A stretch of 64,000 nt of DNA from Granulicella sp. 5B5 (GTDB lineage: Bacteria > Acidobacteriota > Terriglobia > Terriglobales > Acidobacteriaceae): assembly GCF_014083945.1 (NCBI RefSeq), contig NZ_CP046444.1, forward strand, positions 1,302,001 through 1,366,000, in the 5' to 3' direction. The position numbers and the translations under genes were made by a program. Of the stretch, positions 20,358-59,207 are shown piece after piece. The notes below the pieces were generated by a model. The model ran no database searches. It was not told the DNA's origin and saw only the letters and a program-made list of their open reading frames with translations. The stretch's first letter is position 1. Each line of letters opens with the position of its first letter.

Positions 20358-20363
20358 TGCACC

Positions 20364-20678
20364 ATGCCAAAGCTCCCGGCCGTCGACATCAACGATATCC
20401 GCTCCGTCACAGACTTCCAGCGCAACGCGAAAAAGCATGTTGCCCGCCTCCGCAAGACCAAAGCTCCCATGGTTCTTACAGTCAACGGCAGCGCCGCCAT
20501 CGTCGTTCAGGATGCCGCAACCTACCAGGACCTCTTGAACCGGGTGGACTCGCTTGAAGAAGAACATCGCTTTATAGCCGCCGTGAATGAGGGGCTCGCC
20601 GACGTCGAAGCCGGCAGAACGCGCCCATTTCGCGAGGCGTTCGCAGAAGCGGAGTTGAGACTTGGCATACGCCGTTAG
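20364..20678 (+). CDS. Antitoxin, Phd/YefM family
   Basis: A 104-residue protein. The N-terminal half (DINDIRSVTDFQRNAKKHVARLRKTKAPMVLTVNGSAAIVVQDAATYQDLL) has the Phd/YefM fold with the 'L.VNG..A.VVQD...Y..LL' signature. The C-terminal half (from about residue 60) is acidic and probably neutralises the toxin. The ATG lies 6 nt after a TATAAT box and has no Shine-Dalgarno, so the mRNA may be leaderless. It overlaps the downstream toxin gene by 17 nt if the toxin uses its TTG start. Confidence 0.85.
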   Translation: MPKLPAVDINDIRSVTDFQRNAKKHVARLRKTKAPMVLTVNGSAAIVVQDAATYQDLLNRVDSLEEEHRFIAAVNEGLADVEAGRTRPFREAFAEAELRLGIRR

Positions 20679-21000
20679 AATGGCCGTCACTGCCATGCGC
20701 GATGCCGAGGAGTATCACGCCTACATCCTTGGGCAGAGCCATGACAACATCGCTGCCAATCAATGGTGGGACGGACTCTTCAAAGCCATAGCTTCGCTAG
20801 AGACGCTACCCGCACGGTGCCCACGCATTGAGGAACGGGGAAACTTCCGGCACCCCTTGCGGCAGCTTCTTTATGCTTCGCACCGGATTCTCTTTTGGGT
20901 AGACGCAAAGACGGTGCATGTTTTGCGTATCTATCCCTCTTCAGGCCGGCCCTTGCAGTCCCTGCAGCAACGTCCGAAGCACGGCAAAAGCCTGGACTGA
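20662..21000 (+). CDS. RelE/ParE family toxin
   Basis: A 112-residue RelE/ParE-fold protein: an N-terminal beta strand AYAVRMAVTAMRD, helices (AEEYHAYILGQSHDNIAANQWWDGLFKAIASLETLPARCPRI), then the strands RQLLYASHRILFWVDAKTVHVLRIYPSSGRPLQ. Pairing with a Phd-type antitoxin suggests ParE-like gyrase poisoning or RelE-like mRNA cutting. The TTG at 20662 is preferred because it keeps the whole first beta strand; an ATG at 20680 would remove half of it. The stop is immediately followed by the rimO promoter. Confidence 0.85.
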   Translation: MAYAVRMAVTAMRDAEEYHAYILGQSHDNIAANQWWDGLFKAIASLETLPARCPRIEERGNFRHPLRQLLYASHRILFWVDAKTVHVLRIYPSSGRPLQSLQQRPKHGKSLD

Positions 21001-21013: not shown

Positions 21014-22723
21014 GTGAGCAACACCCCTACCCTCGAAATTCCAACAGCCCCCGAAACCGAGTTCTACCGCCCCAAGGTCGGCTTCGTCTCGCTCGGCTGC
21101 CCCAAGAACCTCGTCGACTCCGAGGTCATGATGGGCCTACTTCACCGTTCCGGTGCCGAGTTGACCCCCCGCGCTGAAGACGCCGAAATTCTCGTCGTCA
21201 ACACCTGCTCCTTCATCGACTCCGCCAAGCAGGAATCAGTCGACACTATCCTCGAGATGGTGCAGCACAAGATCGCCAACGGTGGTCGCGCCCAGCGCCT
21301 CATCGTCGCTGGCTGTCTCGTCGAGCGCTATCGTGACGAAATCCGCAAGAACATCCCCGAAGTCGACGCCGTCGTAGGCACCGGCGAGCTAGAAGCCATC
21401 CTCGAAGCCGCAGGGCTCAACCGCCCCGCCCCCGCCGAAAACAACTCGCCCTTCGCCATCCTCACCTCGGCCCAAATCGAGCGCCACGCCAGCAGCGTCA
21501 ACCAGCACTCCCGCCCGGAAGGCGACAGCCCTCAGCTCCGCCACGAGGCCGAATCGTCTTCTCTATCCTCTATCCCCTACTCTCTTTCCCCTGCTTCCAG
21601 AGCCGAAGGCGACGCCCGCGAGCAAGCCGGCCGCTTCTCCCGCGAAGCCTGGGACGGCGCCACCGCCGCCCTCCCCAGCTACCTCTACTCCGACGAGACC
21701 CCACGCATCCTCACCACTCCGCGCGCCTCGGCCTACATCAAGATCGCCGAAGGCTGCGACCACCCCTGCAGCTTCTGCATCATCCCGCAACTGCGCGGTA
21801 AGTTCCGCTCGCGCCCCATTGCCTCCATCGTCGCGGAAGCCAAATCCCTCATCGCACAAGGCGTCCGCGAGATCACCCTCATCGGCCAGGACACCACCTG
21901 CTACGGCGAAGACCTCCTTCCAAGCATCCCTCTCCATACCCATGAAGTGTCATCTCGACCGAAGCGCAGCGAAGCGGAGAGACCTGCAGTTGGGACCGCC
22001 ACAAATCTCCGTCGCCCCGAACTCGCCGATCTCCTCGAAGCCCTCGCCCCACTCCCCGGTCTTAAGTGGCTGCGCTTCCTCTACGCCTATCCCAACAAGA
22101 TCACCACGCGCCTGCTCGAAACCATCGCACGCCACGACACCATCGCAAAGTACCTCGACGTCCCGCTGCAACACGCCAGCGCCAGCGTCCTCCGCCGCAT
22201 GAAGCGTGGCGGCTCCGCCGACCGTTTCCTCCAGATCATCGACAAGGCCCGCGCCACCGTCCCCGGCCTCGTCCTCCGCACCAGCTTCATCGTCGGCTTC
22301 CCCGGCGAAACAGAAGAAGACTTCGCCGAGCTCATGACCTTCGTCGAAGCCGCTCGCATCGACTGGCTAGGCGTCTTCAGCTACTCCGACGAAGAAGGCG
22401 CAGGCGCCTTCGCACTCGACCAGAAGGTCCCGAAGCGCACCATCGAGTCCCGCCGCAAGAAGCTGATGAAGCTCCAGCAAAAAATCAGCAAGCGAGCCCG
22501 CGCAGCCTGGGTTGGCTGCGAACTCGACATCCTTGTCGAAGGCGAGTCCGAAGAGACCGAGCTCCTCTGGCAGGGCCGCTCCCTCGAGATGGCCCCTGAG
22601 ATCGACGGCAAAGTCCTCATCAACGACTTCGGTCCTCACGAGTCCTTAGTCCCCGGCACCTTCTACCGCGCCGAAATCACCGAGTCCCACGACTACGACG
22701 TAGTCGCCCGCATCATCGAATAA
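21014..22723 (+). CDS. rimO: Ribosomal protein S12 methylthiotransferase, enlarged by repeat insertions
   Basis: Adds a methylthio group to an Asp of ribosomal protein S12 using two iron-sulfur clusters. The UPF0004 domain has SLGCPKNLVDSE, NTCSFIDSAKQES and AGCLVERY cysteines. The radical SAM cysteines are Cys248, Cys252 and Cys255 (EGCDHPCSFCIIP), then GQDTTCYGED and a C-terminal TRAM domain. At 569 aa it is about 130 residues longer than usual (about 440). The excess is in two places: residues about 135-235, which include a polypyrimidine repeat (21557-21598), and residues about 305-335, which include a palindromic repeat (21947-21987). Both keep the frame. The GTG start follows TAAACT by 7 nt and has no Shine-Dalgarno. 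Confidence 0.94.
   Translation: MSNTPTLEIPTAPETEFYRPKVGFVSLGCPKNLVDSEVMMGLLHRSGAELTPRAEDAEILVVNTCSFIDSAKQESVDTILEMVQHKIANGGRAQRLIVAGCLVERYRDEIRKNIPEVDAVVGTGELEAILEAAGLNRPAPAENNSPFAILTSAQIERHASSVNQHSRPEGDSPQLRHEAESSSLSSIPYSLSPASRAEGDAREQAGRFSREAWDGATAALPSYLYSDETPRILTTPRASAYIKIAEGCDHPCSFCIIPQLRGKFRSRPIASIVAEAKSLIAQGVREITLIGQDTTCYGEDLLPSIPLHTHEVSSRPKRSEAERPAVGTATNLRRPELADLLEALAPLPGLKWLRFLYAYPNKITTRLLETIARHDTIAKYLDVPLQHASASVLRRMKRGGSADRFLQIIDKARATVPGLVLRTSFIVGFPGETEEDFAELMTFVEAARIDWLGVFSYSDEEGAGAFALDQKVPKRTIESRRKKLMKLQQKISKRARAAWVGCELDILVEGESEETELLWQGRSLEMAPEIDGKVLINDFGPHESLVPGTFYRAEITESHDYDVVARIIE
21557..21598 (+). repeat. Polypyrimidine repeat translated inside rimO
   Basis: TCTTCTCTATCCTCTATCCC followed by CTACTCTCTTTCCCCTGCTT matches the intergenic CTACTCCCTATTCCCTGC repeats. 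It is read in-frame as a Ser/Pro/Leu-rich stretch (about residues 182-195) in the linker before the radical SAM domain. Confidence 0.65.
21947..21987. repeat. ORF-inserted palindromic repeat inside rimO
   Basis: It starts GTGTCATCTCGACCG and ends CGGAGAGACCTGC around a short GAAGCGCAGCGAAG core. It is translated as EVSSRPKRSEAERPA. The tricorn-like gene copy at 61781 is read in the same frame (EVSSRP...EAERPA). Confidence 0.8.
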
Positions 22724-30246: not shown

Positions 30247-30299
30247 GTGTCATCGCTAGGCAGGACAGCTTCATCGTCCTGCCTAGCGGAGAGACCTGC
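30247..30299. repeat. Intergenic copy of the ORF-inserted palindromic repeat
   Basis: It starts GTGTCAT and ends CGGAGAGACCTGC. The inner stem is CGCTAGGCAGGAC against GTCCTGCCTAGCG, 13 bp and perfect. Only the end boxes are shared with the copies in alaS, rimO and the tricorn-like gene; the stem is different. Confidence 0.8.
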
Positions 30300-30366
30300 T
30301 CTTGCTTTTCTTTCTTCCATTCCGAGCGCAGCGAGGAACCTGCTTCTCGCGCGCGAAGCGCGCGCC
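30296..30366 (+). repeat. 70-bp GAGCGCAGCGAGGAACCTGC repeat, copy 1
   Basis: A T-rich part (CTCTTGCTTTTCTTTC) leads into CATTCCGAGCGCAGCGAGGA and ACCTGCTTC, then an inverted GCGCGCGAAGCGCGCGC tail. Copies at 32165 and 59136 share the whole length. Confidence 0.75.
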
Positions 30367-32145: not shown

Positions 32146-32238
32146 TGCGCCCTCTGCGTTCAAAGCCTTTGCTCTTGCCTTTCTTTCTGTCATTCCGAGC
32201 GCAGCGAGGAACCTGCTTCCCGCGCGAGCGAAGCGAGC
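32146..32238 (+). repeat. CTCTGCGT-type remnant followed by the 70-bp repeat, copy 2
   Basis: TTGCGCCCTCTGCGTTCAAA (32148 on) belongs to the 'TTTGCG..CTCTGCGT' group. It runs into TTTGCTCTTGCCTTTCTTTC, then CATTCCGAGCGCAGCGAGGA and an inverted CGCGCGAGCGAAGCGAGCG tail like the copy at 30296. Confidence 0.7.
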
Positions 32239-59135: not shown

Positions 59136-59207
59136 GCCTTTGCTCTCGCTTTTCTTTCTGTTATTCCGAGCGCAGCGAGAAACCTGCTTCTAGCGCGCGA
59201 AGCGCGT
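59136..59207 (+). repeat. 70-bp GAGCGCAGCGAGGAACCTGC repeat, copy 3
   Basis: CCTTTGCTCTCGCTTTTCTT, then TTATTCCGAGCGCAGCGAGA and AACCTGCTTCTAGCGCGCGA. It directly follows the alginate lyase stop. Confidence 0.75.

Follow-up and report, generated by a model that had tools for sequence, protein, structure and literature searches.

Background

Rickettsia palindromic elements (RPEs), of 100-150 bp, occur in Rickettsia and Wolbachia, where they lie in frame in unrelated genes (PMC10969869, PMC3767692). Intragenic REPs are short repeats within the ORFs of several bacteria, many of them in genes for DNA synthesis or repair, and recB of two Xanthomonas species carries different REPs at about one site (PMC3733652). 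Transposases flanked by inverted repeats have been described in Acidobacteria, Granulicella mallensis included (PMC3733652), and the REP/RAYT and IS200/IS605 systems are associated with lagging-strand, single-strand transposition tied to replication (PMC6006769). REPs, defined as extragenic, have been counted with RepRanger in Granulicella aggregans (PMC12306157). Searches of an open-licence library, judged by titles and the opening of abstracts, listed no account of repeats translated in frame in Acidobacteria or RimO. Here we compare these systems with rimO of Granulicella sp. 5B5, situated in a window (the whole stretch of DNA analysed) of 64,000 nucleotides.

Methods

The genus set consisted of 28 genomes, including that of the strain itself, and RimO was found in 26 of these; the named relatives ranking high in a second search belong to Granulicella. 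Nine repeat-family patterns were searched on both strands of the genes for 96 distinct RimO proteins (105 before identical proteins were merged; the fragment L086 was left out, and two records in the set are labelled Rhodanobacteraceae), and neighbouring RimOs were compared on a tree within the 46-tip clade that holds the genus. The survey of the F1 repeat in coding frames covered 89 of 184 copies from six genomes (all listed copies of G000, G006, G009, G011, and G012, and three of the five of G007), with 17 borderline copies excluded from the in-gene count. GC skew was taken on the fetched loci, host gene included. A first gene caller, trained on C-ending codons only, had placed 34 of 34 in-gene F1 copies in sense orientation; it was biased because codon usage in this genome splits by strand into two classes of similar size, and its count is superseded by that from a two-class caller, which turned one copy (L226) from sense to antisense.

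Results and discussion

Identity of the rimO gene

A single gene in the one-contig, 3.93 Mb genome exceeds the RimO cut-off, and its product combines a score above this curated threshold with the conserved UPF0004 cysteines, the CxxxCxxC motif, and a TRAM domain; the solved fold closest to its predicted structure is that of Thermotoga maritima RimO (4jc0). Residues C29, C65, C101, C248, C252, and C255 show no variation among 60 aligned RimOs and lie outside both inserts. Core dN/dS values of ~0.04-0.15 against two relatives indicate that the gene is under purifying selection and is not decaying, and, given that no second RimO is present, the possibility that this is a decaying copy of a rimO that is intact at another locus, which the preliminary description had named as grounds for rejecting its proposal, is excluded. 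Judged from its sequence, RimO is very likely a working enzyme here. Directly upstream (~20360-21000) are two small frames that resemble an antitoxin/RelE-type toxin pair. Coordinates are summarized in Table 1.

Table 1. Features of rimO, in positions of the window
Feature	Position	Strand	Basis
rimO, ribosomal protein S12 methylthiotransferase of 569 aa (start taken as GTG)	21014..22723	+	TIGR01125 491 bits (cut-off 357)
R1, enlarged linker from UPF0004 to radical-SAM domain, 115 aa	21389..21733	+	alignment; 52/115 residues pLDDT<50
Probable divergent polypyrimidine repeat (F6), translated ESSSLSSIPYSLSPASR	21551..21601	+	matrix score for; nhmmer against
Radical-SAM CxxxCxxC motif, without insert disruption	21755..21778	+	
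R2, enlarged radical-SAM-domain loop, 53 aa; 30-residue insertion at 21920-22009	21908..22066	+	alignment; residues 298-332 pLDDT<50
F1 dispersed repeat, translated EVSSRPKRSEAERPAV	21944..21991	+	29 genome copies; 184 in 28 genus genomes

Two enlarged loops

RimO is ~130 residues longer than Thermotoga RimO (the T. maritima chain has 438 aa), just as the preliminary description had it, and the repeats it located at 21557-21598 and 21947-21987 do lie there, at residues ~180-196 and ~311-326, respectively. Relative to 4jc0, R1 contains 78 additional residues (query 133-230 opposite Tm 111-130) and R2 contains 30 (query 303-332 between Tm 202 and 203). Both inserts had been assigned to linker positions outside the catalytic motifs; the cysteines are indeed clear of both, and R1 is a linker, but R2 belongs to the radical-SAM domain itself, as one of its loops. 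In an AlphaFold model (60 sequences, mean pLDDT 74.6), 52 of the 115 R1 residues and residues 298-332 have pLDDT<50; the model is limited because this also applies to residues 248-263 around the cluster. Within R1, residues G206, R207, F208, W213, G215, L220, P221, and T229-R231 constitute family sequence that is invariant among the 60 RimOs. Recognisable repeats account for ~30 of the ~108 extra loop residues, so most of the added length is not recognisable repeat.

The element in R2, F1, is ~40 bp long, with the pattern GTCATCTCGACC..GGAGAGACC, and the rimO copy fits the 36-nt degenerate family pattern with no mismatch. F1 has 29 copies in the genome at no more than 2 mismatches, with none in the rimO copy, and a total of 184 copies is distributed over 16 of the 28 genus genomes; the reversed pattern yields 0 in either case. 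As single-stranded DNA, F1 folds no better than shuffled sequence (z = +0.53 and +0.71 for the consensus and the rimO copy, respectively), whereas z ranges from -2.7 to -5.1 for families F2, F3, and F5. What had been termed a palindromic repeat is hence a genuine dispersed repeat of only weak palindromy. Among the copies listed, F1 lies inside rimO in three of 28 genomes (G000, G007, and G009; rimO of G024-G026 was checked by the RimO pattern scan) against an expectation of ~0.07 (P ~6e-5), the gene having been chosen beforehand because it was given.

The tract in R1 is less clear-cut. Its family, F6, has 206 matches in the genome at ≤2 mismatches (0 for the reversed control), and the rimO tract has 3 mismatches in the 18-nt core. 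An nhmmer profile built from 27 other F6 copies did not list the tract at E≤10; by an ungapped matrix of 24 copies, it ranks 22nd among the sites in 464 kb, with 20.1 bits against 10.6 for the best reversed-matrix site, and 1 of 5000 codon-order shuffles scores as well. The polypyrimidine repeat earlier recognised in rimO thus stands out by matrix score, lacks a profile match, and is at best a divergent member of its family; R1 probably holds an old, eroded copy. That the family is otherwise only intergenic agrees with the gene calls available for the window; of 23 copies scored in a 464-kb portion of the genome, 2 are in-gene, namely that in rimO and one other.

The same loops in relatives

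The length of R1 varies from 70 to 230 aa and that of R2 from 23 to 87 aa among relatives, and their sequence varies as well. R2 has 23 aa in most relatives outside the genus. Within the genus, none of the 25 RimOs measured has an R1 shorter than 100 aa, and 23 of them have an R2 of 29 aa or more. Matches to the repeat families were found in R1 of 15 and R2 of 6 RimOs (17 of the 96 overall), with 1 match in other parts of the gene and 1 for the reversed patterns; 21 of 22 region matches thus lie within R1 or R2. The resulting enrichment over the rest of rimO (P ~1e-11) is optimistic because RimO loops served in part to define the families.

The comparison with sister species that had been proposed reveals that some relatives carry different families in these same two loops. 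The RimO of sister L065 has F2 in R2, where the present gene has F1, and, on neighbouring tips, L068 has F3 where L076 has F7. Families F2, F3, and F5, those tested genome-wide, are multicopy in the genomes tested, except F2 in G027; in G008, 2 of 13 F2 copies are within rimO. Some matches call for caution: that of F2 in L089 is doubtful, since its genome, G027, has 0 F2 copies at that pattern; the reversed F2 pattern gives 1 match each in G000 and G027; an antisense F1-like match in the N-terminal part of L139 may be due to chance; and the F4 match of L134 is antisense.

In-frame repeats in other genes

Coding frames, called with two codon classes, enclose 35 of the 89 surveyed F1 copies, 32 in sense and 3 in antisense orientation. 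Translation of the sense copies yields SSRPERS in 23 cases, VISTGAQ in 9, and the third frame in 0, and the sense excess goes beyond what open frames alone would give (P ~4e-5 if 3/5 of open frames are sense). These in-frame copies are spread over ~30 different genes, with rimO represented three times. F1 is, as in RPE-like protein-coding repeats, a multicopy dispersed element within open frames of unrelated conserved genes. The 13 hosts in this genome are rimO and genes like ubiE/menG, dinB, rRNA methylase, ppc, RNase H, eutB, trpE, a large helicase, trmFO, yoaA/dinG, polA, and an RNB-domain gene, several of these names being based on scores below the NCBIfam cut-off and some loci being cut.

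Occupancy by more than one family is not restricted to rimO: dinB of this genome holds both F2 and F1, and a gene presumed to be GidA/MnmG-like has F1 in one species and an F2-like peptide at that place in another. The earlier proposal of a gene that tolerates two repeat insertions away from its catalytic motifs is therefore supported and extended, as the pattern recurs among RimOs and other genes also carry several families. The further suggestion, that such repeats may generate protein novelty, goes beyond these data, in which 52 of 115 R1 residues and residues 298-332 have low pLDDT and both loops vary among relatives. In the paralogue MiaB, two F3-type hairpins lie in frame in the C-terminal region (L276:1492-2970; genome 240572-242050); this insert is present in 2 of 25 genomes and absent from 23, although L292, among the latter, has some additional sequence of lesser length. 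A single F1-like match in MiaB (L290) may be due to chance.

Two further observations concern other repeats. A 1,689-aa helicase-like frame (L188:8101-13036) with F1, F2, and two F3 exceeds the repeat load of rimO. In the window, dispersed repeat D8, whose form resembles the GTCAT..GAACC pattern (F8), has three copies (30297-30362, 32170-32235, and 59141-59206).

Strand polarity

In six genomes, 87 of 89 F1 copies have their sense orientation on the locally C-rich strand, and in 464 kb all 71 copies, drawn from seven families, do likewise; for 23 of these, those of F6, the polarity is partly built in because this family is pyrimidine-rich. With looser patterns, a few copies (F3 at 0.86 Mb and F5 at 0.10 Mb, one of each) are opposite to the skew of the stretch as a whole. 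GC skew over 20 kb reaches ~+/-0.3, and genes are split by strand into classes with C-ending or G-ending codons (157 and 173 genes, with 14 others). In the RNB-domain gene (L033, L214) of two species, F1 occupies a homologous protein site with opposite orientations, sense and antisense, and this, together with the polarity, suggests that repeat orientation follows the strand and not the gene. Such a rule would be expected of single-strand, fork-linked mobility (PMC6006769); the polarity could alternatively result from selection or compositional drift.

Strand asymmetry is very strong, with a skew of ~-0.28 in the window, and the sign of the skew changes several times along the single contig (sampled stretches L174-L193), which may reflect many inversions or a scaffolded assembly.

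Transposases

Three Y1 transposase genes are present in the genome, two of which adjoin F3 hairpins. One (L274, ~1.955 Mb) is flanked on either side by GGGGCTTTAGCCCC-type hairpins, of which one copy contains a mismatch, and another (L275, ~0.643 Mb) has a GGGGCTTTAGCCCC-type hairpin on one side; these genes and hairpins possibly represent a REP-transposase family. REP/RAYT systems are recognised by a cognate flanked transposase and a stable hairpin. The surroundings of the three Y1 genes yielded no F1 copy, and this, together with the weak hairpin of F1, leaves a transposase route unsupported for that element.

Explanations considered

The reading that we favour, with a probability of about 0.72, is that of a working RimO with two loops that have repeatedly accepted short dispersed repeats in frame, the repeats presumably moving as single strands and their peptides being tolerated. 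Repeats would move or be copied via single-stranded DNA tied to replication, like REP elements with Y1/HUH transposases, and would insert widely, surviving only if they leave the reading frame open and their peptide sits in a flexible loop. A loop that had once taken a repeat could then serve as a permissive slot, open to entry or replacement by later ones. Chance resemblance of both tracts in fast-evolving, low-complexity linkers is highly improbable: the failure of the profile search to list the polypyrimidine tract speaks for it, but the rank of that tract in 464 kb, its shuffle result, and the confinement of nearly all RimO matches to R1 and R2 speak against it, and for F1 the mismatch-free 36-nt fit with an empty control practically refutes it.

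It is also unlikely that the loop peptides are selected as flexible, charged segments that tune RimO-ribosome docking or stability. The lower bounds on R1 and R2 length throughout most of the genus and the use of only two of the three sense frames by F1 would fit such a role, but lengths and sequences differ between close relatives, families interchange, and unrelated enzymes show the same pattern; from the sequences, the peptides are most likely tolerated and not functional. We consider it similarly improbable that the loops grow by slippage and drift and receive repeats through gene conversion from in-gene copies rather than by transposition. Most of the extra loop length is not repeat, and some slots (in the helicase and the mnmG-like gene) hold different families by species, as replacement would give; against this, the MiaB insert, with its many empty sites, suggests insertion. 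A bolder form of the favoured reading, which we put forward as possible yet doubtful, is that replication-coupled single-stranded DNA traffic keeps swapping unrelated cassettes in fixed slots of core enzymes, with the fork, not the gene, setting orientation; if true, these acidobacteria continually rewrite the same loops of many housekeeping proteins.

Conserved enzymes with recurrent in-frame sites, several families, and empty sites in sister species provide a countable natural experiment, which would help to separate repeat insertion sites from tolerated sites and to test mobile DNA as a source of useful protein sequence. Caution is advised with alignments of RimO and other proteins from this group, which can contain translated repeats.

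Comparison with known systems

F1 resembles RPEs in being a dispersed repeat located in frame in unrelated genes; RPEs occupy solvent-exposed regions, with hotspots considered possible. The two differ in that F1 is ~40 bp long, occurs in Acidobacteriaceae, is accompanied by several other repeat families, and is strand-polarised. Intragenic REPs share with the present case hosts in DNA synthesis and repair (here polA, dinB, a yoaA-like gene, and a helicase), yet those repeats are palindromes with a GTAG or CGTC tag, unlike F1 with its weak hairpin, and the available portion of their account (PMC3733652) mentions no replication-strand rule. With REP/RAYT and IS200/IS605 the present case would share replication-linked single-strand mobility, and Y1 genes adjoin F3 hairpins here; no transposase is tied to F1. 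The G. aggregans count puts REPs in print for the genus, the part of that source at hand (PMC12306157) containing nothing on in-frame copies. In-frame repeats are already known, as Rickettsia elements and intragenic REPs, and those described here are of the same kind, with a different element and an orientation rule; what is apparently new is that unrelated families serially occupy the same loops, together with the strand polarity and the phylum for in-frame cases.
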